Positions 28,667-46,320 of a stretch of DNA of 64,000 bases are shown in pieces. This stretch comes from Anaeromyxobacter soli. GTDB taxonomy: Bacteria > Myxococcota > Myxococcia > Myxococcales > Anaeromyxobacteraceae. How positions within the stretch are numbered: the stretch's first letter is position 1; each line of letters starts with the position of its first letter. The notes beneath the pieces are model-generated. The model searched no databases and was not told where the DNA came from. It saw nothing but the letters and a program-made list of their open reading frames with translations. The stretch lies in contig NZ_JAKZLF010000007.1 of NCBI RefSeq assembly GCF_022808855.1, positions 1 to 64,000 on the forward strand. Reading direction: 5' to 3'. Made by a program: the position numbers and the translations under genes.

Positions 28667-30616
28667 ATGAAGCGCGTCGTCGTCGGCACCGCCGGACACA
28701 TCGATCACGGCAAGAGCTCGCTCGTGCGCGCACTCACCGGGATCGATCCGGACCGGCTGCGCGAGGAGAAGCGGCGCGGCATCACCATCGAGCTCGGGTT
28801 CGCGCACCTCGCGCTGCCCGACGGCACCGTGGCCGGCGTCGTGGACGTCCCCGGCCACGAGCGGTTCGTCCGGGCGATGGCGGCCGGCGCGGGCGGGATC
28901 GACCTCGTCGTGCTGGTCGTCGCCGCGGACGAGGGCGTCATGCCCCAGACCCGCGAGCACCTCGACATCTGCCGCCTCCTGGGCGTGCCGCGCGGGCTCG
29001 TGGCGGTGACGAAGTCGGATCTCCTGCCCGGGCTGGGCGCCGACTGGTTGCCGCTCCTCGAGCAGGACATCCGCGAGGCGACGAAGGGGACGTTCCTGGA
29101 GGGCGCCGCGGTGCTGCCGGTGTCCTCCGCCACGGGCGAGGGGCTGGACGAGCTCCGCGCCGAGATCGCCCGGCTCGCGGGCGAGGTGACGGAGCGGCCG
29201 GCGGACGGGCCGGTGTTCCTGCCCATCGACCGCGCCTTCTCCATGAAGGGGTTCGGGACGGTGGTCACCGGGACGCTGCTCTCGGGGCAGATCGCCGAGG
29301 GTGACGAGGCGGCGCTCCTGCCGTCGCCGCCGGGGGCGCCGCCCCTCCGCGTCCGGAGCGTGCAGGTGCACGGCAAGGCCGCCCCGCGCGCGCTCGCCGG
29401 CCAGCGCACGGCGGTGAACCTCCCCGGCATCGAGCCCACCGCGGTCGCGCGGGGCCAGGCGCTCGTGCACGCCGGCGTCGTGCCGCCGTCCTCGATCCTC
29501 GACGCCGAGGTGACGCTCCTCGCCGCCGCGCCGCGCCCGCTCAAGCACCGCGCGAAGCTCCTCCTCCACGTGGGCACCGCGCAGGTGCCGGCCGCCGTCG
29601 CGCTCCTCGATCGCGCCGAGCTCCGCCCCGGCGAGACCGCCTTCGCGCAGCTCCGCCTCGGGGCGCCGGTCGCGGCGCTCCCGGGCCAGCGCTTCATCCT
29701 GCGCGGCTTCGCGGTGCTCGAGGGGCGCGGCAAGACCGTCGGCGGCGGGCGCGTCCTCGCCGTGGCCGCCCCGCGGCGCCGCCGCGGGCGTCCCGAGGCG
29801 ACGCGGCAGCTCGAGGTGCTCGCCCGCGGCGACCCCGACGCGCGCGTCGCGGCCGTGCTCGAGCTGGCCGGGCCGGCGGGGCTCGACCTGCCCGGCCTCG
29901 TGGGGCGGACCGCGCTCGCGCCCAGGGCGGCGCAGGGCGCGCTCGACCGCCTCGGCGCGAAGGGCGGCGCCGTGCTGTTCGATCGCGAGCGCCGCGCCTA
30001 CGTGGGGGGCCCGGTCGCCCAGGAGCTCGCGCGGCGCCTCCTCGCCGCGGTCGACGCGTTCCACGCCGCGCACCCGCTCGCGGCGGGCATCGGCCGCGAG
30101 GAGCTGCGGGGGAGCCTGCCCCCCATCACCGATCCCCGCCTGTTCCAGCGGCTCCTCGCCCAGCTCGCGGAGAGGGGCGAGCTCGTCGTCCAGGGCGACC
30201 AGGTGCGCCGGAAGGGCCACGCCGCCGCCTCCGGCGCCGACGCGGGGGCGCTGAAGGAGAAGGTCGCGCAGGCGCTCGCCCAGGGTGGGCTCACGCCGGC
30301 CTGGCTCGCGGAGCTGCCGCTGCTCGTGGGAGGCGCGCCGGCCGACGTGCAGGCGGTGCTGAAGCTCCTCCTCGCCGAGGGGCGCGTCGTCCGCGCGAGC
30401 GCGGAGCTCTGGTTCGACGCGGGCGCGGTCGGGGCGCTCCGGGAGCGGCTCGTCGCCTTCCTGCGCGAGCGGCGCGAGATCTCGACCCAGGAGTTCAAGG
30501 ACCTCGTCGGCGCCACCCGCAAGCACGTCATCCCGCTCGCCGAGTACTTCGATCGCGAGAAGGTCACCCTGCGCGTCGGCGAGAAGCGCGTGCTGCGCGG
30601 GGAGGGGCGCGCATGA
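28667..30616 (+). CDS. selB: Selenocysteine-specific elongation factor SelB
   Basis: A 649-residue translation GTPase that carries Sec-tRNA to UGA codons marked by a SECIS hairpin. The G motifs are intact: [29 protein letters not shown] and VTKSD. The SelB-specific long C-terminus (about 380-649) consists of winged-helix repeats; the last ([28 protein letters not shown]) is the typical SECIS-binding fourth unit. It is close to the usual length. Its stop overlaps the ATG of the sensor kinase (ATGA), so selB and the two-component genes are one operon. selA lies 12 kb away at 42534. Confidence 0.96.
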
Positions 30617-33600
30617 GCGAGGCGCCGCTCGAGGCCGTCGGCACGGTCGTCATCCGCGGGGGGCGGATCCTGTACGCGAGCCCGCTCGTGGCGGCGCTCG
30701 TGGAGAGCACGAGCGCCGCGCTCGTCGGCGCGAAGGCGTTCGAGCTCCTCGCCCCGGAGGACCGGTCGCGCACGGCGGACCGGTACGCGCGGCTGCTCCG
30801 CGGCGAGCCGACGCCGGCCGAGTACGAGGTCGCCCTCGCGCTGCCCGGCGGCGGGCGCCGGGCGGTGGAGCTCAGGATGGACGTCGACGGCCGGGACGTG
30901 CTGGTGCGCGTCCGGGACGTCTCCGCGCGCGCCGACCGCCGCCCCCGCCTCGAGGCGCTCGCGGCGCTCGGCGCGGCCATCCAGCGCGAGCGGAACGAGG
31001 CGGGGGTGTTCGAGCGCGTCCGCGACGGGCTGCGCGCCATCGGGCTCACCTCGCTCCTCATGCGCCCCGAGTCGGACGGCGTCCGCCTGGAGTGGGCCGC
31101 GCCGGCGCCCGCGATCGAGGCCGAGTTCGTGGAGAAGGCGGGGCCCCTCGTCGGCCGCGTTGGCGCGTGGGGATCGTTCTCCCGCGCCGTGTGGGCGGAC
31201 GGGGTGGCGTTCTCCGACGACTGGGGGTCGGAGGTCGCGGCGTTCGTGGGTGACCCGCGGGCCGAGGTCGCCCACGCGAGCGCGGTCGCGCTCCGCCTCA
31301 CCCGCGCCATCGCGGTCCGCCTCGACGAGCGGACCGCCATCCGGAACTACCTCGTCATCGTCGGCGACTGGCTCGACCGCGGCGACGTCGCGGCGGTGCG
31401 GCTCTTCGGGGCGCAGGTGGCCGCCGCGCTCGACGCGGCGCGCATCATCGCCGACCTCTCGCGCCGCAACGCCGAGCTCGCGGCGCTGAACCGGCTGGGC
31501 GCCATCGCCGGCGACGCGGCGGATCTGCCGAGCTTCTTCGCGCGCTCCGCCGAGCTGGTGCGGGCCGCCACGGGCTGCGACGCGCTCGGCGTCTACGTGC
31601 TCGAGGACCGCGAGGGCGAGCTCGCCTGCCGCTTCCACGACGGGGTCGAGAACGCGCCGGCGGACACCGCCCGCCTCCCGCTCACCTCGCCGCTCGGGGA
31701 CGTCGTGCGCGACCGCACCGCGCGGGTGGTGGAGGCCCGCGCCGACGATCCGGGCGGCGCGCTGGTGGCGCGCCTCGGCTTCGCGGCCAGCGCCTGGGTT
31801 CCGCTCGTGGCGCGCTCGCGCGTGGTCGGCGTCATGACCGCCGGGTACCGCTCCGGCCCGGAGCGGGCGCACTCGCGGCTCGACGTGCTCGCCGCGGCGG
31901 CCGCCCACTTCGCCGGCGCGATCGAGTCCCACGGCCTGCTCGGTGACCTGCGCCGGCGCGTCGGCGAGCTCACCCTCCTCAACGACCTCGCGCTCGCCTC
32001 GGCGCAGCTCGACCCGGTGCTGCTGCTCGACGCCGCGCTCCGCCGCGTGTGCGGCACGCTCGACGCGGGCGGGGCCGCGTTCCTGCGCGACGGCGACCGG
32101 CTCCTGCTCGTCTCCGGCGTGGGCCTCGCGCCCGAGGCGGCGCGCGCGGTCGCCCAGCTCCAGGTCGGCGAGGGCGCCCCCGGCCTCGCGGTGGCGCGCC
32201 TCGGCCCCGTGGACGGGCGCGACCCGGCCAGCGGCGGCGACGCCTGGGAGGCGTTCCGCGCCGCGCGCGGCGACGGGCCGCTCGTGGCCGTGCCGCTGCT
32301 CGCGAAGGCCCACGCGCTCGGGGCGCTCCTCGTGACCCGACCCGTCAACGGGCGCGAGCTCGAGCCGGGCGACGTCGGCCTCCTCTCCGCCATCGGCGTG
32401 CAGCTGGGCGTCGCCGTCGAGAACGCGCGCCTCTTCGCGGACGTGCGGCGCCGCCTCTCCGACCTCGAGGCCGTCCACGCGCTCGCGCTGCGGATCTTCG
32501 GGAACGCGCCGGGGGACGTGCGGGCGCTGCTCGAGGACGGCTGCCGCGAGGTCGCCCGCGCCCTCTCCGCCCGCGGCGCGGCGGTGCTGCTCGTGGACGA
32601 CGGAGGGCGCGCCCTGCGGGGCGTGGCCGCGTTCGGGGCGCCGCTGGATCCGGCGAAGATGCGGATCTCGCTCGAGGAGGACGGGATCGCCGCGGAGGCG
32701 TTCCGGCGCCGCGCGCCGGCGTGGAGCGCCGACGTGAAGGGCGATCCGCGCACGAGCATCCACGCCGCGCCCGGCATGCCGTCCCTCGCGATGCTCGCCG
32801 TCCCGCTGACCTCCCGTGAAGCGACCCGCGGGGTGCTCTTCATCGCCGACGACGCCGGCCGCAGCTTCGGCGATCCGGAGCTCGCGCTCGCGAACGCGCT
32901 CGCCGGCGAGCTCGCCGTCGGGCTCGAGAACGCCGAGCTCTACGCCGAGGCGCGCGCGCGCGTCGAGGAGCTCTCGCTCCTCAACGAGATGGGCAGGACC
33001 GTGGCGGCCTCGCTCGATCTCGACCAGGTGCTGCGGGACGGCGTGGAGGCGGGCCGCCGCCTGCTCGACGCGAGCCGCGGTGCGGTGGTGCTCTACGATC
33101 CGGTCGCGAGCGAGCTGCACCTCGCGGCGGGGACGGGGCTCGAGGAGGAGGATCCCGCCCTCTTGCCCCAGGCGCTGCGCGACGGGGGCGTCTCCTTCCG
33201 CGTGATCCGCGAGCGGCGGGCCATCGTGGTGGACGACGCCCGAAACCACCTCGAGGTGAACGCCGAGCTCCGGGACCGGCTCTCGCCGCGCGCCATGCTC
33301 TTCGCGCCGCTGCTCCTGCGCGGCGAGCCGCTCGGCGTGCTCGTCATCGAGGAGTCCCGCCGCCCCCGGCGCTTCACGGAGGCGGACGTCCAGCGGGTCA
33401 CCGCGGTGGCGAACCAGCTCGCGGTGGCGATCGAGAACGCCCGCCTGTACCAGGCCGCGCGCGACCGCCTCGCCGAGCTCTCCGCGGTCATCGACGTCGC
33501 CCGGGTGGTCTCGTCCTCGCTCGAGCTCGAGGAGGTGCTCGGCGCCGGCGCGGAGCAGCTCATGCGCACCCTCGAGGTCCCGGCGTGCACGATCCTCCTC

Positions 33601-35157
33601 GGCGACGTGCGCGGGCAGGCGCTGCGACGCGCGGCGTTCCGGGGCGCGCCGGTCGGCGCGGACCGCCTCTCGCTCGAGGAGCCCTCCATGGCGCGGGCCG
33701 CCCTCGAGGCGCACGCGCCGCTCGCCGGGCGCGCCGACACGGGCGCGGCGGTGCTCGCCGTCCCGCTGCACGTCCGCGACCAGCCGGTCGGCGTCGCGCT
33801 CGTCGAGGGCGCGGACGCGGAGCGCACCTTCACCCCCGGCGAGCTCTCCCGCGCCATGGCCATCGCGAGCCAGCTCGCCGTCGCCGTGGACAACGCGCGG
33901 CTCTACTCCGAGACCCGCCGCCGCGCCGAGGAGCTCGCGCTGCTCCACGACGTCGGCCGCTCCCTCGCCACCCTCGACATCGAGCAGGTGCTCGGCGAGG
34001 GCGTGAAGAACCTCGCGCGCATCGTCGACTGCACCGCCGCGTTCCTCGCGCTCGGGCCCGGCGACGGGGGCAGCCCCGAGATCCGGGCCGTGGCGGGGCC
34101 GCTGCGGGGCCTGCTCGGGCGCCGGCTCCCGCCGGGCTCGACGCCCATCGAGAGCCCCGTCCTCGAGCGGGGCGAGGCCGTCGCGATCGAGGACGTGGAG
34201 CAGGATCCTCGCGTCTCCCCCGAGGCCCGGGCGCTGACCGGGGCCCGCGCCCTGCTCGTGCTCCCGCTCCTCGTCCGCGAGCGCACCATCGGCGCGGCCG
34301 TCATCATCGAGACCCGCGCGCCGCGCCGCTTCACGTCCGCGGAGATCCAGCGCGCCGCCGCCATCTCGAACCAGCTCGCCGTCGCCGCGGAGAACGCCCG
34401 CCTCTACGAGGACCTCCGCAAGAGCTACGCGGAGCTCGCCCGGGCGCAGCGGCAGCTCATCCAGCAGGAGCGGCTCGCCGCGCTCGGCGAGCTCTCCGCG
34501 GTCGTCGCCCACGAGGTGCGCAACCCCCTCGGCGTGATCTTCAACTCGCTCGGCTCGCTGCGCCGGCTCATCCGCCCCGCCGGCGACGCGAAGCTGCTCC
34601 TCGACATCGTGGGCGAGGAGGCGGACCGCCTGAACCGGATCGTCGGCGACCTGCTCGACTTCGCGCGCCCCTCCGAGCCGCAGCTCCGCCCCGAGCGGCT
34701 CGAGCGCGTCGTCGACGAGGCGATCCAGACCGCGCTCGCCCAGAACCCGCAGGGCGTGGAGGTCCACCGGGAGGTGGACCCCGACCTGCCGGCCGTCCCG
34801 ATGGACGCGCGCCTCGTGCGCCAGGCGGTCATCAACATCGCCGTGAACGCGCTCCAGGCGATGCCCCGCGGCGGCCGGCTCACCGTCCGGCTGCGGCGCG
34901 AGGACGGCGCCGCCGCCCTCGACCTCGAGGACACCGGCCCCGGCATCCCCGAGGAGGTCCGGCACCGGATCTTCGAGCCCTTCTTCACGACCAAGGCGAG
35001 CGGGACCGGGCTCGGGCTCGCGGTGGTGAAGCGGATCGTCGACGGCCACGGCGGCGAGCTCACCGTGCAGAGCCGCCCGGGCGGCACCGGCACGGCGTTC
35101 CGCCTCCGGCTGCCCTTGCGCCCGTCCCCCACCGAGAAGGAAGCCGCCCATGGTTGA
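30613..35157 (+). CDS. Soluble hybrid-length sensor histidine kinase with PAS-like head and about seven GAF domains
   Basis: A 1514-residue cytoplasmic histidine kinase without membrane segments. A PAS-like region (about 8-105) is followed by some seven GAF units, each ending in a variant of QLAVAxENARLY then a linker helix ending in ELxxLN (e.g. near 290, 440, 600, 770, 935, 1090, 1255). The kinase core follows: H-box VVAHEVRNPLG (about 1298), N-box NIAVNALQAM, DTGPGIPEEV and GTGLGLAVVKRIVDGHGG. It lacks a receiver domain. GAF domains bind small ligands or redox cofactors; which ones is not visible. It is coupled to selB upstream and overlaps the NtrC-type gene by 8 nt, so the two are cognate partners. 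Confidence 0.92.
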   Translation: MSEAPLEAVGTVVIRGGRILYASPLVAALVESTSAALVGAKAFELLAPEDRSRTADRYARLLRGEPTPAEYEVALALPGGGRRAVELRMDVDGRDVLVRVRDVSARADRRPRLEALAALGAAIQRERNEAGVFERVRDGLRAIGLTSLLMRPESDGVRLEWAAPAPAIEAEFVEKAGPLVGRVGAWGSFSRAVWADGVAFSDDWGSEVAAFVGDPRAEVAHASAVALRLTRAIAVRLDERTAIRNYLVIVGDWLDRGDVAAVRLFGAQVAAALDAARIIADLSRRNAELAALNRLGAIAGDAADLPSFFARSAELVRAATGCDALGVYVLEDREGELACRFHDGVENAPADTARLPLTSPLGDVVRDRTARVVEARADDPGGALVARLGFAASAWVPLVARSRVVGVMTAGYRSGPERAHSRLDVLAAAAAHFAGAIESHGLLGDLRRRVGELTLLNDLALASAQLDPVLLLDAALRRVCGTLDAGGAAFLRDGDRLLLVSGVGLAPEAARAVAQLQVGEGAPGLAVARLGPVDGRDPASGGDAWEAFRAARGDGPLVAVPLLAKAHALGALLVTRPVNGRELEPGDVGLLSAIGVQLGVAVENARLFADVRRRLSDLEAVHALALRIFGNAPGDVRALLEDGCREVARALSARGAAVLLVDDGGRALRGVAAFGAPLDPAKMRISLEEDGIAAEAFRRRAPAWSADVKGDPRTSIHAAPGMPSLAMLAVPLTSREATRGVLFIADDAGRSFGDPELALANALAGELAVGLENAELYAEARARVEELSLLNEMGRTVAASLDLDQVLRDGVEAGRRLLDASRGAVVLYDPVASELHLAAGTGLEEEDPALLPQALRDGGVSFRVIRERRAIVVDDARNHLEVNAELRDRLSPRAMLFAPLLLRGEPLGVLVIEESRRPRRFTEADVQRVTAVANQLAVAIENARLYQAARDRLAELSAVIDVARVVSSSLELEEVLGAGAEQLMRTLEVPACTILLGDVRGQALRRAAFRGAPVGADRLSLEEPSMARAALEAHAPLAGRADTGAAVLAVPLHVRDQPVGVALVEGADAERTFTPGELSRAMAIASQLAVAVDNARLYSETRRRAEELALLHDVGRSLATLDIEQVLGEGVKNLARIVDCTAAFLALGPGDGGSPEIRAVAGPLRGLLGRRLPPGSTPIESPVLERGEAVAIEDVEQDPRVSPEARALTGARALLVLPLLVRERTIGAAVIIETRAPRRFTSAEIQRAAAISNQLAVAAENARLYEDLRKSYAELARAQRQLIQQERLAALGELSAVVAHEVRNPLGVIFNSLGSLRRLIRPAGDAKLLLDIVGEEADRLNRIVGDLLDFARPSEPQLRPERLERVVDEAIQTALAQNPQGVEVHREVDPDLPAVPMDARLVRQAVINIAVNALQAMPRGGRLTVRLRREDGAAALDLEDTGPGIPEEVRHRIFEPFFTTKASGTGLGLAVVKRIVDGHGGELTVQSRPGGTGTAFRLRLPLRPSPTEKEAAHG

Positions 35158-36601
35158 GCTCCCCCCCGGCGTCGCCGGCTCCGAGGACGGCGGGGACCTC
35201 GCGCGCCGCGCGGCCGCGAGCGTTCCCCCCCGGGGCAAGGTCCTCGTCGTCGACGACCAGAAGAACATGCGCGCCACGACCGCCATCGTGCTGCGCCAGG
35301 CCGGACACGTGGTGGAGGAGGCGGAGGACGGCGCGGCGGCGGTGCAGCGCCTCCAGCAGGAGACCTTCGACGTCGTCCTCACCGACCTGCGGATGCCGAG
35401 CGTCGACGGGATGGAGGTCCTGCGCGCGGCGCAGCGGCTCGCGCCCGAGACCCAGGTCATCGTGATGACCGCCTACGGCACGATCGAGTCGGCGGTCGAC
35501 GCGATCCGGGAGGGCGCCTACGACTTCCTCGCGAAGCCGTTCAAGGAGGACGAGCTCCTCCTGCGCGTCTCGAAGGCGCTCGAGAAGCGCCGCCTGCTCG
35601 GCGAGGTGAGCCTCTTCGCGGGGGAGTTCCGCAAGCGCTACGGCCTCGAGCACGTCATCGGCCGCTCCGCCGCCATGCGCGAGGTGCTCGACCGCGTGGT
35701 GCGCGTGGCGCCCACCGACGCCACGGTCCTCGTCACCGGCGAGTCGGGCACCGGCAAGGAGCTCGTCGCCCGCGCGATCCATGTCGCGAGCCGCCGCGGC
35801 GACAAGCCGTTCGTGCCGGTGAACTGCGCCGCCATCACCGAGACGCTCCTCGAGTCGGAGCTCTTCGGCCATGCGAAGGGCGCCTTCACCGGGGCGATCC
35901 GCGCCCGGCGCGGCCTGTTCGAGGAGGCGAACGGCGGGACGCTCTTCATCGACGAGGTCGGCGAGACCGCGCCGGGCTTCCAGGCGAAGCTCCTGCGCGC
36001 CCTGCAGGAGGGCGAGATCCGCCGGGTGGGCGAGTCCGCGCCGGTCCAGGTCGACGTGCGCATCATCGCGGCGACGAACCAGGATCTGCGCCGCGCCATC
36101 TCCGAGCGCCGGTTCCGCGAGGACCTCTACTACCGGCTGGCGGTGGTGCCGGTCCGGATCCCCCCGCTGCGGGAGCGGCGCGAGGACATCCCCCTCCTCG
36201 CCGCCCACTTCGTGCAGCGCTACAACCGCCGCACCGCCGAGGGGAAGATCCTCACCCCCGAAGCGCTCGCCCGGCTCGTCGAGCACGAGTGGCCCGGCAA
36301 CGTGCGAGAGCTCGAGAACGCGATCGAGCAGGCCGCGGCGCTCTCTCCCAGCCGGGAGATCCGCGCGGGCGACGTACACATCGAGGCCGTGCGCGACGTC
36401 GGTCCGGGGCGCGACGAGGACCGCCGCACGCTCGCCGAGGCGGTGGAGGACGCGGAGCGGCGCACCATCGAGGCGGCGCTCGCGCGCTGCGAGGGCGATC
36501 TCGGCCGCGTGGCGCGCGAGCTCGGGGTCTCGCCGACGACGCTGTGGCGGAGGATGAAGCGGCTCGCCATCGATGCCCGCGGCGCCGTTCCCCCGGCCTA
36601 G
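35150..36601 (+). CDS. NtrC-family sigma-54-dependent response regulator
   Basis: A 483-residue activator. The receiver domain (about 25-140) has phospho-Asp in VVLTDLRMPS and Lys in FLAKPFKED. The AAA+ domain (about 165-390) has Walker A GESGTGKE, the sigma-54 contact loop GAFTGA, and Walker B GGTLFIDEVGE. The C-terminal Fis-type HTH (DLGRVARELGVSPTTLWRRMKRL) binds upstream sites. When phosphorylated, such proteins form rings that remodel sigma-54 RNA polymerase. It overlaps its kinase gene. A near-perfect sigma-54 promoter is found only 213 bp beyond its stop, with two dyads upstream, so it likely controls the small RNA there. Confidence 0.95.
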   Translation: MVELPPGVAGSEDGGDLARRAAASVPPRGKVLVVDDQKNMRATTAIVLRQAGHVVEEAEDGAAAVQRLQQETFDVVLTDLRMPSVDGMEVLRAAQRLAPETQVIVMTAYGTIESAVDAIREGAYDFLAKPFKEDELLLRVSKALEKRRLLGEVSLFAGEFRKRYGLEHVIGRSAAMREVLDRVVRVAPTDATVLVTGESGTGKELVARAIHVASRRGDKPFVPVNCAAITETLLESELFGHAKGAFTGAIRARRGLFEEANGGTLFIDEVGETAPGFQAKLLRALQEGEIRRVGESAPVQVDVRIIAATNQDLRRAISERRFREDLYYRLAVVPVRIPPLRERREDIPLLAAHFVQRYNRRTAEGKILTPEALARLVEHEWPGNVRELENAIEQAAALSPSREIRAGDVHIEAVRDVGPGRDEDRRTLAEAVEDAERRTIEAALARCEGDLGRVARELGVSPTTLWRRMKRLAIDARGAVPPA

Positions 36602-36666
36602 CCCGCGGCGACGGCGAGCCGGCGACGCGCGGCCAGGCGCCGCCGAGCGAGTGCGGGACACGCGTT

Positions 36667-36702
36667 TTTCAGCTCTGAAACGGCCGCCTTTCACGTGTGC
36701 AA
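36667..36702. promoter_or_regulatory. Two phased dyads, candidate binding sites of the NtrC-type activator
   Basis: TTTCAGCTCTGAAA (36667-36680) is a perfect TTTCA-N4-TGAAA dyad. TTTCACGTGTGCAA (36689-36702) is the same dyad with one mismatch. Their centres are 22 bp apart, two helical turns. They lie about 145 and 167 bp before the predicted start site, where enhancer-binding proteins act. A third, near-palindromic sequence CGGTGGAACGTTCGACCG lies at 36741-36758. Confidence 0.55.
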
Positions 36703-36813
36703 CGCGGAGGCCCGCTGGGTCACTGCGGGGGTCCCCTCGCCGGTGGAACGTTCGACCGCCATCCTCCTGGATTTCCTCGGTTGTCCGGCAAGAAGGACGC
36801 GCAAGGCCCCGGA

Positions 36814-36829
36814 TGGCACCGATGTTGCT
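36814..36829 (+). promoter_or_regulatory. Sigma-54 (-24/-12) promoter
   Basis: TGGCAC (36814-36819), 5 nt, then TTGCT (36825-36829). The invariant GG (36815-36816) and GC (36827-36828) are separated by exactly 10 nt as sigma-54 requires. This predicts transcription from about 36840, just before the hairpin at 36845. Confidence 0.75.
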
Positions 36830-36839
36830 CTTAGCGAAC

Positions 36840-36918
36840 CAAGAGAAGTGCAAAGCAGCCTGTTGAAGGAGGTCCCCCCCCGCCACTTCAGCTGCGCTTT
36901 GCACTTCTTTTCTTTTTT
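36840..36918 (+). ncRNA. Candidate sigma-54-dependent small RNA (about 79 nt)
   Basis: From the predicted start at about 36840 the RNA folds as one long hairpin: a 12-bp stem (36845-36856 with 36896-36907), a small internal loop, and a 7-bp stem (36862-36868 with 36886-36892, one G-U). A 17-nt loop holds GAGG followed by eight Cs. The 3' end is TTTT-C-TTTTTT. No start codon follows the AAGGAGGT at 36866 at a usable distance. C-rich loops in regulatory RNAs often pair with Shine-Dalgarno regions. Myxococcus xanthus Pxr is, as I recall it, a precedent for a small RNA beside an NtrC-type regulator; I do not claim homology. The alternative is an attenuator in the leader of the receiver gene at 36939. 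Confidence 0.65.
36845..36918 (+). terminator. Intrinsic terminator forming the body of the small RNA
   Basis: GAAGTGCAAAGC (36845-36856) and GCTTTGCACTTC (36896-36907) are perfectly complementary, followed by T4-C-T6 (36908-36918). It is the strongest intrinsic terminator seen in the window, and on the plus strand only. Confidence 0.8.
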
Positions 36919-36938
36919 CTCCGCGGATCGCCGCCCGC

Positions 36939-37265
36939 ATGGCCTCGTTCCTCATCGTCGACGGTGACCGAAACTTCCGCGAGGCACTCGCGATCGCGCT
37001 CAGGTTGGACGGCCACGCGGCCGTCGCCGCGGACACCGCGGACGACGCCCTGGCGCGAATCGCGACGCGGCGACCCGACTGCTGCGTGGTGGACGCGCAC
37101 CTCGTCGGCTCGGACACCGTGCTCGAGGCCGCGGCCGCGGCCGGCGTGCGCACGGTCGTGACGGGCCCCCACGAGGATCTCCTCGCCCACGTCGTGCGCC
37201 GTCACCCGCGCGCGCAGCCGCTCCCGAAGCCGTTCGCCGCCGACGCGCTCGCGCGGCCCGCCTGA
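36939..37265 (+). CDS. Stand-alone receiver-domain protein (CheY-like)
   Basis: A 108-residue receiver domain without output domain. FLIVDGDRNFREALAIAL gives the acidic pocket, CCVVDAHLVG the likely phospho-Asp (about residue 52), VVTGPHEDL the conserved Thr, and PLPKPFAADAL the Lys. Only one acidic residue pair is seen at the N-terminal pocket (DGD instead of DD), so phosphorylation may be weakened. No Shine-Dalgarno precedes the ATG. It begins 20 nt after the small-RNA terminator, so its expression may depend on readthrough. It may act as a phosphate sink or partner of the nearby kinase (inference). Confidence 0.7.
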   Translation: MASFLIVDGDRNFREALAIALRLDGHAAVAADTADDALARIATRRPDCCVVDAHLVGSDTVLEAAAAAGVRTVVTGPHEDLLAHVVRRHPRAQPLPKPFAADALARPA

Positions 37266-37282
37266 AGGTTCTGACGAGGCTG

Positions 37283-37324
37283 CGCGCCCGCCGGCACCGC
37301 GTTGATCGCGGCGCGGCGGGCGCG
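37283..37324. terminator. Hairpin between convergent genes
   Basis: CGCGCCCGCCG (37283-37293) pairs perfectly with CGGCGGGCGCG (37314-37324) around a 20-nt loop, between the receiver gene and nuoN, which converge. There is no T tract on either side. A bidirectional terminator or pause structure is likely. Confidence 0.5.
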
Positions 37325-37343
37325 TGAGGAACGGCCGGAGAGC

Positions 37344-38813
37344 CTAGAGCAGGATCGCGCCGGCGGCCTGGGCGAGGCGGATCACCGGGTCGGCGACGAG
37401 CCCGAGCACCACCACCACCGCGACCGCCGCGGCCAGGGCGACCGAGGTCGCGGCGGACGAGAGCGGCTCCGCCTCGCCGGCCGCGGGCCGCATGTACATG
37501 TAGACCACGACGCGGAGGTAGTAGTAGATGCCCATCGCGCTCGTCAGCACGCCGAGGATGGCGAGGCCGTAGAGCTGCGCGCCGATGGCCGCCTGGAAGA
37601 TGTAGAGCTTCCCGATGAAGCCCGCGGTGGGCGGGATCCCCGCGAGCGACAGCAGGAACACGGCCATCGCGAACGCGAGCCCCGGGCGGCGCCGCGCCAG
37701 CCCCGCGAAGCGCTCGAGGTCCCACGCGTCGGCGGGCTCGTCGTCGAGGCGGGAGCGCCGCTCGAGCGCGCCCACCACGGTGAAGGCGCCGATCGCCGTC
37801 GCCGCGTACACGGCGAGGTAGAAGAGCAGCCCCGCGAGCGCCTTCTCGCGCACGCCCGCGACCGAGGCGGACAGCACGCCGACGAGGAGGTACCCGGCGT
37901 GCGCCACGGAGGAGTACGCGAGCATCCGCTTCACGGAGCGCTGGGGCACCGCGAGCAGGTTCCCGAAGATCATCGTCAGCACGGCGAGGCCGCTGATGAC
38001 GCCCGAGAACGCCGTCGCCTGCGCGGCGGTCCCCGCCTCCGCGGAGAGGAAGATGCGGGCGAGGAGCGCGAACGCGGCGGCCTTCACCCCGGCCGCCATG
38101 AACGCGGTCACCGGCGTGGGGGCGCCCTCGTAGACGTCGGGCGTCCAGGCGTGGAACGGCACCGCCGCGATCTTGAAGGCGATGCCGGCCGCGACGAGGC
38201 TCAGCCCGGCGAGGGAGAGCGGCGAGCCGCGGCCCTTCGCGAGCTCGCCGAACAGGGTGGAGCCGGACGCGCCGTAGAGCAGCGCCGAGCCGTAGAGGAA
38301 GAGCGCCGAGGAGATGGCCCCGAGCACGAGGTACTTGAACGCCGCCTCGGAGGGGCGCTTGCCGCGGCGGAGGTAGGCGGCGAGCGAGTACGTCGCGAGG
38401 CTCATCACCTCGATGGCGATGAACGCGACGAGGAGGTCGGTCGCCATGCCGAGCAGGGCCATGCCGGCCGTGCCGAACAGCGCGAGCCCGTAGAACTCCC
38501 CGCGCTCCGCGTTCCGGGCGCGCAGCCAGCCCGCGCCGACGAGCGCGGAGAGCGCGAGCCCGGCGCACACGACCACCGTCACGAAGGCCGAGAAGTCGTC
38601 GACCACCGCCTGGCGGTTGAACACGTAGCCGGAGTAGGGCCGGGCGATCGCCGCGGCCCCCGCGGCGACGGCGAACACGACCGTGATGGCGGCCTGGTAC
38701 CCGCGCCGCCCCGAGACGAGGAACACCTCGCTGAGGAGCACCGCGAGCGCCCCGACCGTGAGGATCGCGATCGGGAGGAGCGCCACGAAGTCGTTCGTCG
38801 GGAAGCCGTTCAT
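37344..38813 (-). CDS. nuoN: NADH-quinone oxidoreductase subunit N
   Basis: A 489-residue inner-membrane subunit of respiratory complex I with about 14 transmembrane helices and the antiporter-like core that pumps protons. Seen are the conserved Glu in [18 protein letters not shown], the lysine region [21 protein letters not shown], and [23 protein letters not shown] with Lys in AGVKAAAFA. The late [18 protein letters not shown]-like segment is complete. It is the last gene of nuoLMN, starting 1 nt after nuoM ends. Length matches the family. Confidence 0.96.
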
Positions 38814-38814
38814 G

Positions 38815-40419
38815 TCAGTGAGCCCCGCCGGTGGGGAGGACGATGGGGAGCGTCGGGGCGGGAAGCTGGGCGCCCGCGCGGACCGCCACGGACGGCGTGA
38901 CCGTGCCGACCTGCGGGCCGATGCCGAGCCGCGCCTCCGCCTGCTGGAACCGCCCGATGAGCCGGTCGACGGCCGGCTTCGCCGGCGCGAGGAACGGGCC
39001 GGGGAGGATCCCCATCACCACGATGAGCACGAGCATCGGGACGAGGACGAAGCCCTCGCGGACGCTGAGATCGGGGAGGGCGCGGTTCGCCGGGTTCCGC
39101 ATGGCCCCGAAGAACACCCGCTCGACCAGGATGAGCATGTAGACCGCGCCGAGGATGACGCCGAGCGCGCCGAGGGTCGCGAACACCGGCGCCGAGCCGA
39201 GCCGCGAGAGCCAGGTGCCGGAGAGGATGAGGAACTCGCCGACGAAGCCGTTCGTGCCCGGCAGCCCGACCGACGACAGCATCACGATGACGAACGCCGT
39301 CGCGATCCAGGGGACCTGCTTCGCGATCCCGCCGTACTCCGCGATGAGCCGCGTGTGGCGCCGCTCGTAGAGCATGCCGACGAGGAGGAACAGCGCGCCC
39401 GTCGACACGCCGTGGTTCAGCATCTGGTAGACGGAGCCGGTGAGCCCCTCGGCCGAGAGCGCCACGAGGCCGAGCATCACGAAGCCGAGGTGCGAGACCG
39501 AGGAGTAGGCGACGAGCCGCTTCATGTCGGTCTGCACGAGCGACATGAGCGCGCCGTAGAGGATGCCGATCACCGCGAGCACGGCGATGACGTTCCGGTA
39601 CTGCAGCGCCGCCTCCGGGAAGAGCGGCAGCGCGTACCGGAAGAAGCCGAAGGTGCCCATCTTGAGGAGCACGCCGGCGAGGATGACTGAGCCGGCGGTC
39701 GGGGCCTCGGTGTGCGCGTCGGGCAGCCAGGTGTGGAGCGGGAACATCGGCACCTTCACCGCGAACGCGACGGCGAACGCGAGGAAGAGCCAGCGGGCGT
39801 GGTCGGGCGTCACCTGCAGCGCCTGCCGCGCCTGGACGTAGTCGAAGGTCCCGCCGTCGTGGAAGTAGATGTAGATGATGGCGAGCAGCATGAGGACGCT
39901 CGCCGTGAACGTGTAGATGAAGAACTTCACCGTCGCGTACAGGCGGTTCTGCGAGCCCCAGATGCCGATGAGCAGGTACATCGGCACGAGGATGAGCTCC
40001 CAGAACACGTAGAAGAGCACGAGGTCGAGCGCGGCGAAGGTCCCGATCATCGCCGTCTCGAGCACGAGCAGCGCGATCATGAACTCCTTCACGCGCTCCT
40101 CGACCGCCCGCCACGCGGACAGGATCACGATGGGCGTGAGCGCCGTCGTGAGCATCACGAGCAGGAGCGCGACGCCGTCGAGGCCGACGTGGTAGCCGAT
40201 GCCGAGCGACTGGATCCACGGCAGGCGCTGCTCGAACTGGAACTCGGGCGCGCTCGCGGAGGCGTCGAAGCCGAACCAGAGCCCGAGCGACAGCACGAAG
40301 GTGAGGAGCGAGAAGCCGAGCGTGAGCGCGCGGTGCTGCCCGGGCTCGTCGCGCGGGACGAGCACGAGCGCGAGCGCGCCGGCGAGCGGGAGGAAGGTGA
40401 CGAGGGTGAGGAGGTTCAC
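38815..40419 (-). CDS. nuoM: NADH-quinone oxidoreductase subunit M
   Basis: A 534-residue proton-pumping membrane subunit of complex I. The essential Glu lies in [19 protein letters not shown]. The pumping Lys lies in [31 protein letters not shown] with downstream [27 protein letters not shown] is also diagnostic. The start is GTG 40419, four bases after the nuoL stop, with a GGGAGGGC stretch upstream inside nuoL. It is the middle gene of the nuoLMN unit. Confidence 0.96.
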
Positions 40420-40422
40420 GGT

Positions 40423-42453
<2,031 letters not shown>

Positions 42454-42466
42454 AGGAGTGCGCGAA

Positions 42467-42506
42467 GGATTACCCGCTCACGCGTGGTTAGACAAGGCTC
42501 TTGTCA
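42467..42506. promoter_or_regulatory. Overlapping divergent promoters of nuoL and selA with inverted repeat
   Basis: On the minus strand TTGTCT (42495-42490), 17 bp, TAATCC (42472-42467) forms a good nuoL promoter. On the plus strand TTGTCA (42501-42506) could be a -35 for selA, with TAGCAT at 42522-42527. Both -35 boxes are arms of one inverted repeat, GACAAG-GCT-CTTGTC (42491-42505), so one regulator could control both directions. Confidence 0.5.
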
Positions 42507-42533
42507 GCGGAAAACCTCCGCTAGCATGCGGAC

Positions 42534-43982
42534 ATGAAAGCTCCAAATTCGCCCCCGGCCCCCCCTTCCGAGGCTCGAAACTTGCCGCGTGCCGACCGGC
42601 TGCTCGAAGCGGCCGAGAAGGCGGGGCTGGTGCGGCGGCTCGGGCACGGGGTGGTGATGGAGGCGGTGCGAGGGGAGCTGGAGCGGATCCGGCGCGAGAT
42701 CCTGGGCGGCGCCACCTGCCCGCCGCCCGAGGCGATCGAGCGCGACCTCCTCGATCGGCTCGAGGCGGCGTCGAAGGGCTCCTTGCGGCCGGTGATCAAC
42801 GCCACCGGCGTGGTGATCCACACGAACCTCGGCCGCGCGCCGCTCTCCGAGGACACCATCGACGCGATGCGTCGTGCCGCCGCAGGCTACACGAACCTCG
42901 AGTACGACCTCGAGGCGGGCGAGCGCGGCGATCGCTACGGGCACGCCGAGGCGCCGCTCTGCCGGCTCACCGGCGCCGAGGCGGCGGTGGTGGTGAACAA
43001 CAACGCGTCGGCGGTGATGCTCGCGCTCGCCGCGCTCATGCCGGCCCGGCCGTCGGGCGACGCGCCGGCGGACGGGGCGCCCGAGGTGGTGGTCTCGCGC
43101 GGCCAGCTCGTGGAGATCGGCGGCGGGTTCCGCATCCCCGACGTGCTGCGCCGCTCGGGCGCGACGCTCGCCGAGGTCGGCACGACGAACCGCACCTACC
43201 GGCGCGACTACGAGGACGCGATCGGGCCGCGCACGCGCATCCTCATGTCGGTGCACCGCTCCAACTTCCGCGTGCAGGGGTTCGTGCACGACGCGTCGCT
43301 CGAAGAGCTCGTCTCGCTCGGGCGCGAGCGCGACCTGTGGGTGGTGGACGATCTCGGCTCGGGCACCCTCCTCGAGACCGCGCCGCACGGCCTCGGGCTC
43401 GAGCCGACGGTGCAGGAGCGCGTGCGCGCCGGCGCCGACCTCGTCTGCTTCTCCGGCGACAAGCTGCTCGGCGGCCCGCAGGCGGGCGTCCTCGTGGGCC
43501 GCCGGGAGGCGATCCGGCGCGTGAAGCGCCACCCGCTCATGCGCGCGCTGCGCGTCGACAAGGTCACCCTGGCCGGCCTCGGCGCGACGCTCGCCCACTA
43601 CGAGCGCGGCGAGGCGCGCGAGAAGGTCCCCGTCTGGCGCGCGATCGCGGCGGCGCCCGAGGCGATCCGGGAGCGGGCGGAGCGGTGGCGAGCGGCGCTC
43701 GGCGCGGCGGGCGGGGGGGCCTCGGTGGTGCCCAGCCGCTCGGCGGTGGGCGGCGGCTCCCTGCCCGAGGTCACCCTGCCGACCTTCGTGCTCGCCCTCC
43801 CCGCCGGCGATCCCCATGCGCTGCTCGCGCGGCTCCGCCGCCGGGATCCCCCCGTCGTCGCACGGATCGAGGAGGATCGGGTGGTGCTCGATCCGCGTAC
43901 GGTGCTGCCCGGCGAGGACGAGCCGCTCGTTCGCTGCGTGAAGGAGGCGCTCGCAGGCGCAGCCCCCGTCTCTACGGGTTGA
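42534..43982 (+). CDS. selA: L-seryl-tRNA(Sec) selenium transferase SelA
   Basis: A 482-residue pyridoxal-phosphate enzyme that converts Ser-tRNA(Sec) to Sec-tRNA(Sec) with selenophosphate. Diagnostic parts are INATGVVIHTNLGRAPLS, YTNLEYDLEAGERGDRYGH, VVNNNASAVMLALAAL, SHRSNF-like MSVHRSNFRVQGF and the PLP-lysine segment CFSGDKLLGGPQAGVLVGR. Slightly longer than E. coli SelA (463). The start ATG lies close to the predicted transcription start. Its end overlaps that of the convergent response-regulator gene by 11 nt. With SelB at 28667 it shows the organism makes selenoproteins. Confidence 0.96.
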   Translation: MKAPNSPPAPPSEARNLPRADRLLEAAEKAGLVRRLGHGVVMEAVRGELERIRREILGGATCPPPEAIERDLLDRLEAASKGSLRPVINATGVVIHTNLGRAPLSEDTIDAMRRAAAGYTNLEYDLEAGERGDRYGHAEAPLCRLTGAEAAVVVNNNASAVMLALAALMPARPSGDAPADGAPEVVVSRGQLVEIGGGFRIPDVLRRSGATLAEVGTTNRTYRRDYEDAIGPRTRILMSVHRSNFRVQGFVHDASLEELVSLGRERDLWVVDDLGSGTLLETAPHGLGLEPTVQERVRAGADLVCFSGDKLLGGPQAGVLVGRREAIRRVKRHPLMRALRVDKVTLAGLGATLAHYERGEAREKVPVWRAIAAAPEAIRERAERWRAALGAAGGGASVVPSRSAVGGGSLPEVTLPTFVLALPAGDPHALLARLRRRDPPVVARIEEDRVVLDPRTVLPGEDEPLVRCVKEALAGAAPVSTG

Positions 43983-44664
43983 ATCTGTATCCGACCCCGC
44001 GCACCGTCTCGAGATGCCGGGGGTGCTCGGCGTCGTCGCCGATGTGGGCGCGCAGCCGGGCGATGAAGTTGTCCACCGTCCGCGCCGTGCCGAAGTAGCG
44101 CGAGCCCCACACCGCCTCCATGAGCTGCTCGCGGCTGAACACGCGGTCGGGGTGCAGGACGAAGAAGGCGAGGAGGTCGTACTCGCGGCTCGTGAGCTCG
44201 AGCGCGTTCCCGGCCACCGTCGCGCGGCGCGCGTCGAGGTCGAGCTCGATCTGGCCCACCTTCCGCACGGCGCGGTTCGGGCCGGTCTCCCCGCGCGCGC
44301 GCCGCCGGCGCAGGAGCGCGTCGATCCGCGCGAGCAGCTCCTTCAGCCCGAACGGCTTCACCAGGTAGTCGTCCGCGCCGAGCTGGAGGCCGGCGACCTT
44401 GTCGCCCTCCTGCCCCTTCGCGGAGAGGATGAGGACGGGCAGCTCGGGGTCGTCCTTGCGGATCTCGCGCACCACCTCGAGCCCGCCGAGCCGCGGCAGC
44501 ATCACGTCGACGAGGACGAGGTCGGGCTTCTCGGTCTTGGCGAGCCGGAGCCCCGTCTCGCCGTCGCTCGCCGAGCGCACGGTGTAGCCCTCCATCCCGA
44601 GGTTCAGCTGGAGCCCGCGGAGGATGGAGGGATCGTCCTCGATGACCACGATCTTCTCGCCCAC
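43972..44664 (-). CDS. OmpR/PhoB-family response regulator
   Basis: A 230-residue regulator. The receiver domain has the acidic pair IEDD, the phospho-Asp in LVLVDVMLPRLGG (about 52-54), and KPFGLKELLARI. The winged-helix output (about 135-228) has ELTSREYDLLAFFVLHPDRVFSREQLMEAVWG and a RTVDNFIARLRAHIGD recognition helix. It is 11 nt downstream of the sensor kinase gene and its partner. Target genes cannot be read from sequence; the decaheme cytochrome gene lies on the far side of the kinase. Confidence 0.94.
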   Translation of the reverse strand: MGEKIVVIEDDPSILRGLQLNLGMEGYTVRSASDGETGLRLAKTEKPDLVLVDVMLPRLGGLEVVREIRKDDPELPVLILSAKGQEGDKVAGLQLGADDYLVKPFGLKELLARIDALLRRRRARGETGPNRAVRKVGQIELDLDARRATVAGNALELTSREYDLLAFFVLHPDRVFSREQLMEAVWGSRYFGTARTVDNFIARLRAHIGDDAEHPRHLETVRGVGYRFNP

Positions 44665-44675
44665 GTCTTCCCTCC

Positions 44676-45611
44676 CTACGCCGGCCGCGCCGCGCGCGCG
44701 CCTTGCGGCGCCTCGGCGACCGCGCCGAGGGCGGGCAGCGAGATCGTGAACGTCGCCCCGTGGCCCACCTGGCTCGACACCGACACCTTCCCGCCGTGGC
44801 CCACCGCGATGTGCTTCACCATCGCGAGCCCGAGCCCGGTCCCCTCGATCGTGCGCGAGAGCGGATCGCGCGCCCGGTAGAACTTCTTGAAGATGCGCTT
44901 GTGCTCGCGCTCGGGGATGCCGGGGCCGTTGTCGGTGACGCTGATCTGCACGGTCGGGCCGCTCGCCACGGCGCGCACCGTGATGCGCTTCTCGGGGCCG
45001 GTGTACTTGTGGGCGTTCTGCAAGAGGTCGAGGATCGCCTCCGAGAGCGCCTTCCGGTCGGCCATGACCGGCGGCAGGTTCGGCGCGACGTCGCGCTCCA
45101 CCTCGGCGGGGTGCTGCAGGAGCATGGCCTCGAACGCCTGGAGCGCCGAGTCCACGATGGGCCCCACCGGCTCGCGGGAGAGCTGGTAGGTGCGGCGGCC
45201 GGACTCCATGCGCGCCCAGTCGAGGAGCCGGTTGATGAGCCCGGACAGGCGGGCGGTCTCGTCGGAGATGATCTCGAGCGCCTCGCGCTGGCGCGCCTCG
45301 TCGGGGATGCGGCCGAGCTGGAGCGTCTCGACGAACATCCGGATGGAGGTGAGCGGCGTCCGGAGATCGTGGGAGACCTTGTTCACGAAGTCCGTCTGGA
45401 GCTTCGCGAGCCGGGCCTCGCGGAAGATCACCGCGAGCGTGGCGGCCGACCCGAAGATGGTGGTCGCCACGAGCGCGACGATGAGCCAGCCGAAGACGTA
45501 GTCCCGCGGCAGGGTGCCGTAGACCAGGATGAGGATGCCCACCGTCAGCATCAGCGCCGCGGGGACGAAGACGAAGCCGATGACGAGCGGCAGGACGCGG
45601 CGGAGCTTCAC
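44676..45611 (-). CDS. Membrane sensor histidine kinase
   Basis: A 311-residue kinase with two transmembrane helices at about 8-30 and 41-62 and almost no periplasmic loop (GTLPRDYVFG), so it probably senses the membrane or an inner-membrane partner. The H-box FVNKVSHDLRTPLTSIRMFVETL starts near residue 77. The ATPase domain has LLQNAHKYTGPEK, DNGPGIPEREHKRIFKKFYR and GTGLGLAMVKHIAVGHGG. The GTG at 45611 is the start. It is the first gene of the pair with the OmpR/PhoB regulator. Confidence 0.93.
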   Translation of the reverse strand: MKLRRVLPLVIGFVFVPAALMLTVGILILVYGTLPRDYVFGWLIVALVATTIFGSAATLAVIFREARLAKLQTDFVNKVSHDLRTPLTSIRMFVETLQLGRIPDEARQREALEIISDETARLSGLINRLLDWARMESGRRTYQLSREPVGPIVDSALQAFEAMLLQHPAEVERDVAPNLPPVMADRKALSEAILDLLQNAHKYTGPEKRITVRAVASGPTVQISVTDNGPGIPEREHKRIFKKFYRARDPLSRTIEGTGLGLAMVKHIAVGHGGKVSVSSQVGHGATFTISLPALGAVAEAPQGARAARPA

Positions 45612-46320
45612 GGGGCGCCTCGCGGGGGGTCGGATCTCATCTATAGCCCAGGCGCGCCCGGCGCGCCGCGGGTGCTTCCGGGTACGGCCGCGGCCCGCGT
45701 GCGCGGGCCTGCGGGGGGACGCCGTGTCGTGAAGACGACAGGATCGTCCTCGACCCTGGAACGCGGCGAGCCAGCCTTCACGTTTCGTGCGCGCTACGTG
45801 GCGAGGACTCGCTGTCGCAGGGGCACGCTCTCGACCCGGGGTGTCGCCTCACCCGGCCGCGTTAACGATTAGCAAGAGTGAAGCTCAACGGAGCGCAGTC
45901 ACTACGCTTCTGCCGGTGAACGTCGCCACCGAACCGATCCGAACGCGCGGCGCGCAAATTGCGCGCTTCACGTTTCCCGAGCGTCACACGGGAGGTCCTG
46001 CTTCGCGCGTCCGCGCGCAAACCTCCCGTCTCGCCGGAGCCTTATCCGCGAGATCCCGGCTCCGTGCGACGGGCATTGCGCTTCGAATAATTTGCGCCGA
46101 AACCAATCCGCTCATTTTGGCTCGCGGCACGCATTCGGGGGTCGGAATGTTGACGCAGGGGGATGCTCGTCGTTCATTCGCGATGTCAGGCAGTTAGCAA
46201 TTGCTTGAACCACCAATTGCTCGAGATCAACCGTCCGCTGGGGACGTGCGGCGCTCCGAGGTCGGTGGCGCCGCTGGAAAGGCTGCGCGCTCGCGCGAGC
46301 CACTTGGAGGGTTTCACCAC
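45612..46320. other. 709-bp intergenic region before the decaheme cytochrome gene
   Basis: No gene is seen in this divergent gap, which is less GC-rich than its surroundings. It contains a 17-bp palindrome GCGCGCAA-A-TTGCGCGC (45950-45966) and a long hairpin with 9-bp arms ACGGGAGGT / ACCTCCCGT (45986-45994, 46019-46027). A candidate promoter for the cytochrome is TTGACG (46150-46155), 17 bp, TTCATT (46173-46178). An AGCAATTGCT palindrome (46196-46205) is followed by a repeat of CAATTGCT. GGAGG at 46306 precedes the cytochrome start by 10 nt. Confidence 0.5.

Follow-up and report, generated by a model that had tools for sequence, protein, structure and literature searches.

Two palindromic elements located upstream of a sigma-54 promoter of Anaeromyxobacter soli very probably are the upstream activating sequences at which the product of the neighbouring gene, the NtrC-family regulator PxrR, would promote the synthesis of a small RNA of the Pxr type. 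These elements were analyzed in a window of 64,000 nucleotides (contig NZ_JAKZLF010000007.1) and by comparison with other genomes. In the mechanism that we propose, the histidine kinase PxrK would phosphorylate PxrR, two PxrR dimers would occupy the TTTCA-N4-TG(A/C)AA sites, which are separated by roughly two turns of the helix, and these dimers would assemble into an AAA+ oligomer that a DNA loop would bring to the RNA polymerase-sigma-54 complex at positions 36813-36828. The RNA of approximately 77 nt produced in this way would expose a hairpin loop of eight C residues, which may base-pair with G-rich (Shine-Dalgarno-like) targets.

The dyad pair, the sigma-54 promoter and the neighbouring regulator

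The distal dyad, TTTCAGCTCTGAAA (TTTCA-GCTC-TGAAA), spans positions 36667 to 36680 and the proximal dyad, TTTCACGTGTGCAA (TTTCA-CGTG-TGCAA), positions 36689 to 36702, no strand being assigned to either; the latter departs from the perfect dyad by a single mismatch, a C for an A, and the two starts are 22 bp apart, just as the original prediction described them. Relative to the start deduced from the -24/-12 site, the dyads are placed 143-166 bp upstream, with their centres at about -165.5 and -143.5, in good agreement with the distance of about 145-167 bp initially proposed. The spacing had been given as exactly 22 bp, and this holds for the present genome, but other promoters range from 18 to 22 bp. 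The arrangement is that of an NtrC-family enhancer, in which two dyads precede a -24/-12 element by 80-200 bp and are one to two helical turns apart. The classical NtrC operator is TGCACC-N5-GGTGCA; its consensus half-sites are absent from the dyads, in which the half-sites are TTTCA/TTGCA.

In the window, which has a GC content of 74%, the pattern TTTCAN4TGAAA allowing one mismatch has three matches versus 0.05 expected from shuffled sequences, and TTKCAN4TGMAA has exactly two, TTTCAGCTCTGAAA and TTTCACGTGTGCAA, with 0.01 expected. When the latter pattern was searched in the whole genome (5.3 Mb), four dyads were found and the sole close pair was that at 36667-36702. The single dyads found elsewhere (L140 and L141) are as frequent as those of the reversed-pattern control, and neither a recognised sigma-54 site nor a C-loop core occurs in the DNA that surrounds them. 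A third near-palindrome, CGGTGGAACGTTCGACCG (36741 to 36758, no strand assigned, 8/9 pairs), had also been noted; it was rejected as a site, given that the window contains 54 equally good 18-mers and that it is not conserved even in the closest relative, Anaeromyxobacter terrae, whose strain SG22 shows 91% identity with the window over 8 kb. This palindrome is a product of chance and lies outside the system.

The -24/-12 element TGGCACcgatgTTGCT (TGGCAC-N5-TTGCT; 36813 to 36828, forward strand) is a very good match to a sigma-54 promoter, and TGGCAC...TTGC is invariant among related genomes. Taking the GC of this element as -13/-12, the transcription start was set at about 36839. No protein gene begins at this promoter; transcription would read into the hairpin RNA of approximately 77 nt, which carries a U-run and is not named in the original prediction.

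The genes around the promoter follow the order kinase, response regulator, RNA, receiver-only ORF and nuoN. The kinase, a PxrK-type sensor of 1514 aa (30613 to 35157, forward strand), includes PAS, five to six GAF, HisKA and HATPase domains according to Pfam, and its C-terminal 449 aa are 45% identical to the protein encoded upstream of pxrR in Myxococcus xanthus AM003 (tblastn). The gene at 35150 to 36601 (forward strand) encodes PxrR, a response regulator of the Nla19/SpdR type with receiver, sigma-54 AAA+ and Fis-type HTH domains in Pfam and 57% identity to M. xanthus PxrR (tblastn, AM003); the GAFTGA motif can be read in its ORF, and hence an enhancer-binding protein of the cognate type is encoded near the dyads. 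nuoN (37344 to 38813, reverse strand; 56% identity by tblastn, M. xanthus AM003) is syntenic: in fruiting myxobacteria, pxr is flanked by the same NADH dehydrogenase gene (PMC5568312). By reading alone, a selB-like gene (28667-30616) and a selA-like gene (42534-43982) flank the pxrKR-pxr-nuo block.

PxrR is the best candidate for the protein acting at the dyads. It has been shown that Pxr synthesis in M. xanthus needs PxrR (PMC10217877), and the open papers go no further than predicting an "enhancer binding region" (PMC5684412). An alternative, which we consider unlikely, is that the dyads are used by a different regulator, either another NtrC-family protein or a dimeric factor other than an enhancer-binding protein, PxrR being simply adjacent. 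NtrC-family regulators are numerous in this genome (19 matches at E<=1e-100 in G000), and another of them could bind the dyads if its HTH were similar; and in several genomes the sRNA unit is placed away from pxrR. Nevertheless, the dyad pair and PxrR co-occur (66/101 versus 1/16 genomes; Fisher p 8e-6, ignoring phylogeny), Pxr is genetically dependent on PxrR in M. xanthus, as mentioned, and the HTH has been kept from Anaeromyxobacter to Myxococcus, since PxrR of both carries the recognition-helix region S-TTLWR(K/R)MKRL, whereas the paralogues carry DRKTLYRIL. PxrR is also present at L020 (G023) and L024 (G015), where neither dyads nor RNA are detectable in the genome; in these bacteria PxrR may thus act at different sites or on different targets.

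The small RNA and its relation to Pxr

The predicted RNA extends from 36839 to 36915 on the forward strand (approximately 77 nt) and includes an outer stem (GAAGTGCAAAGC/GCTTTGCACTTC), an inner stem-loop SL1 (TTGAAG...CTTCAG) with a loop of eight C residues, and a U-run. The fold of this region is a single strong hairpin with the U-run after it (-38.2 kcal/mol, z -6.8), in which SL1 is enclosed by the 12-bp outer stem that serves as terminator. The poly-C loop CCCCCCCC (36874 to 36881, forward strand) is the presumed seed and its core of seven C residues is invariant in the alignments; in M. xanthus, function is lost when a C of the SL1 loop is replaced by A (PMC5684412).

An alignment of 11 sequences, which come from Anaeromyxobacteraceae and another family and include no Myxococcaceae, supports 24 pairs, with 95.8% of the cells paired, and compensatory changes occur at 8 pairs (23 cells versus 7.1 in shuffles). 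The covariance model derived from it, which contains no Myxococcus sequence, matches M. xanthus pxr (L122) at the right place with an E-value of 8.6e-6 in 140 kb, and it also places the RNA correctly in the other Myxococcaceae loci tested. On pxrR loci without the RNA it gave one match only (E 0.7), and on a whole Myxococcus-type genome the E-values were only about 5e-4. Matches of the model on the opposite strand were discarded, as they reflect the near-palindromic hairpin. The common SL1 core, YTGAAGnnGGTYCCCCCCCRCCnCTTCARY, was searched in approximately 85,000 species genomes, where it was found in 32 stretches: 4 from Anaeromyxobacter, 27 from other myxobacteria and 1 labelled Comamonas. 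The last record (L113, titled Comamonas sp. KCTC 72670) has a Myxococcus-type pxr and is probably mislabelled or a mixed assembly. A search of positions 30000-46000 against Rfam gave no match at E<=1.

As expected for a member of the Pxr family, the RNA is encoded downstream of pxrK-pxrR, between pxrR (nla19) and the NADH dehydrogenase gene (a position that defines the family in PMC5568312), its sigma-54 promoter is directly upstream, and its SL1 stem-loop shows the conserved poly-C loop. In contrast, no separate SL2 and SL3 are present in the folded Anaeromyxobacter RNA, and for this reason it is regarded as a homologue and structural variant, rather than as a standard Pxr. SL3 of M. xanthus Pxr has a conserved 8-bp core and is needed for accumulation, and SL2 is also missing from two Cystobacter paralogues (PMC5568312); the absence of SL3 in a Pxr relative is new.

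Two other views of this RNA have to be considered, both of them very improbable. The first is that the hairpin is the 5' leader or attenuator of the receiver-only ORF that directly follows it (36939 to 37265, forward strand, 108 aa; Pfam Response_reg, below cut-off), and that the dyads and the promoter serve this ORF. The order RNA-ORF is kept in several Anaeromyxobacteraceae genera; nonetheless, relocated or second units have no such ORF downstream, e.g. those of L154-L156 and that of L149, close to a mutL-like gene, the hairpin terminates in a U-run, and the M. xanthus counterpart is a stand-alone sRNA (PMC5568312). The receiver ORF is probably not driven through the terminator. The second is that an unrelated hairpin arose at the pxr position, which would fit with the lack of separate SL2 and SL3 and with the modest similarity of the whole RNA to that of M. 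xanthus, reflected in the E-values of about 5e-4 mentioned above. However, gene order, promoter type and dyads are the same as at M. xanthus pxr, the -12 element and the poly-C run are separated by a nearly constant distance (39-45 nt in every family examined), and the SL1 pattern matches, 31 of the 32 stretches bearing myxobacterial titles.

Dyad pairs and relocated units in other genomes

When five Anaeromyxobacter intergenic regions were aligned, the conserved blocks corresponded to the two dyads, the -24/-12 element and the RNA, while the remainder was strongly diverged. On a broader scale, a dyad pair (TTKCA-N4-TGMAA, 18-22 bp) was present in 51 of the 60 promoters that precede the C-loop RNA, either orthologous or relocated, although these 51 sequences are mutually related and therefore do not represent 51 independent events; 200 dinucleotide shuffles of the 60 promoters gave 0.0 dyad pairs. 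Conservation in orthologous loci, on which the original prediction had made the enhancer reading depend, is thus observed. The spacing among the 51 promoters is 19 bp in 31 and 22 bp in 2, and the other 9 promoters show no second recognisable dyad at an accepted spacing. The idea that the dyads are AT-rich palindromes that arose by chance in intergenic DNA of high GC content can be dismissed with hardly any reservation: short palindromes do arise, CGGTGGAACGTTCGACCG being an example, but only 0.01-0.05 such matches are expected per window and the recurrence just described already refutes it.

The scan of 117 whole genomes of the order revealed 78 places with a pair, and none with the reversed pattern. 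These places are located no more than 5 kb from pxrR in 68 cases, and 7 of the other 10 precede a C-loop sRNA, so that 75 of the 78 stand beside a pxrR orthologue or a sigma-54/sRNA unit; outside the order, the pair was found in 2 of about 45 genomes. Judging by the motif, the PxrR regulon would apparently be nearly single-target. Three dyad pairs (L157, L158 and L160) are not accompanied by a recognised sRNA or sigma-54 site; these could be other PxrR targets or the result of chance.

In the reciprocal approach, the RNA model, which is blind to the upstream DNA, was applied to complete genomes, in many of which no RNA follows pxrR. Eighteen matches were obtained in other genomes away from the standard locus, not all of them new, since the search with the dyad pattern had already revealed L149/L180, L150/L182 and L190. 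In 17 of the 18, a dyad matching at least 9/10 was present 85-140 nt upstream (shuffle mean 0.15); a sigma-54-like element was likewise found in 17 of the 18, at no more than 32 nt (shuffle mean 0.07). Three weak matches of the model in G005 and G007 (L186-L188), with neither dyad nor promoter, were considered false positives. Dyad pairs stand before the sRNAs and the off-locus RNAs have dyads, thus each predicts the other; where the sRNA unit has been relocated, the dyads travel with it. The recurrence of the pair in 51/60 related promoters together with the reciprocal result of 17/18 strongly supports, by comparison, the candidate role originally assigned to the dyads as an enhancer for the protein encoded at 35150-36601.

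Relocated or second units formed by dyads, sigma-54 promoter and sRNA were observed in related genera (L149/L180, L150/L182, L184, L179 and L181), with a slightly different core (GAGGGGACCCCCCCGCACCTC); that of L149 adjoins the mutL-like gene. In another family of the order (L154, L155 and L156) the unit precedes a gene that reads like a PLP enzyme of Cys/Met metabolism (LAVHAG...), and an extra terminator follows. Four head-to-tail dyad pairs, repeated every 325-328 bp approximately, were found at G072:C1:8811828-8812844 and G092:C1:1721481-1722488; these series are tandem arrays of the whole pxr unit. In one genus of Myxococcaceae (g23; L094, L098, L101, L102, L104 and L107) a further single dyad is located about 200 bp downstream of the -24/-12 element, behind pxr.

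Known systems and the role of the module

The pxr locus of M. xanthus consists of pxrK-pxrR-pxr followed by MXAN_1079 and the NADH dehydrogenase gene (PMC5568312, PMC10217877, PMC5684412, PMC11928866). The locus of A. soli shares with it the order pxrK-pxrR-pxr-(one gene)-NADH dehydrogenase, the sigma-54 promoter, the SL1 with a poly-C loop and the upstream dyad pair, which in M. xanthus AM003 is 19 bp apart; in contrast, the dyads of A. soli are 22 bp apart and about 32 bp further upstream. The single gene that separates pxr from the NADH dehydrogenase gene is also different, pxrA in M. xanthus and the receiver ORF in A. soli, and so is the end of the RNA, given that in A. soli the outer stem that closes around SL1 acts as terminator in place of a separate SL3, and this stem and terminator are unlike SL2/SL3 of M. 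xanthus. The hosts are different as well: Pxr holds back fruiting-body formation in Myxococcus (PMC5568312), whereas Anaeromyxobacter forms no fruiting bodies (PMC8538405) and several fruiting genes are missing from A. dehalogenans (PMC2330069).

Pxr and PxrKR are already known. To judge from the literature covered here, no description exists of the motif of the operator, of a regulon that by motif is nearly single-target, of copies that are relocated or additional, or of the SL3-less variant of Anaeromyxobacter. Pxr, known for its gatekeeper role in multicellular development, has been described as arising in the suborder Cystobacterineae. No description of an Anaeromyxobacter pxr was found in the open pxr literature, a scope that does not include the suborder survey of Chen et al. 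2014. Tentatively, we suggest that PxrK-PxrR and the RNA with the poly-C loop could form an ancient, nearly single-target and order-wide module that was not born as a fruiting brake; its ancestral role might be nutrient or respiratory control, perhaps still exerted in Anaeromyxobacter, and the recruitment of the module by fruiting bacteria would be a later event. Since Pxr is accompanied by a regulator and an operator of its own in these non-fruiting bacteria, a pre- or non-multicellular role becomes testable in A. dehalogenans, for which a concrete candidate for the PxrR operator is now available; in addition, the covariance model recovers relocated as well as duplicated copies in different families, Rfam having no matching model.

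RepG of Helicobacter is an sRNA with a C-rich loop, and this loop is the probable seed for G-rich targets; the hairpin loop of C residues is common to both RNAs, by analogy only. In Vibrio, the NtrC-family regulator LuxO activates the sigma-54-dependent qrr sRNA genes. As in that system, here a two-component enhancer-binding protein would control a small RNA that in some genomes has several copies (PMC10162802); however, the RNA, the partners and the phylum are others, and the likeness resides in the logic alone, no sequence relation being claimed. Within M. xanthus, the operator of Nla28 also consists of paired sites for an NtrC-type enhancer-binding protein at sigma-54 promoters, typically 80-150 bp upstream of -24/-12, which is also the range observed here; unlike the present dyads, its half-site is CT(C/G)CG(C/G)AG and it has many targets, as compared with apparently one in our case (PMC7910581).
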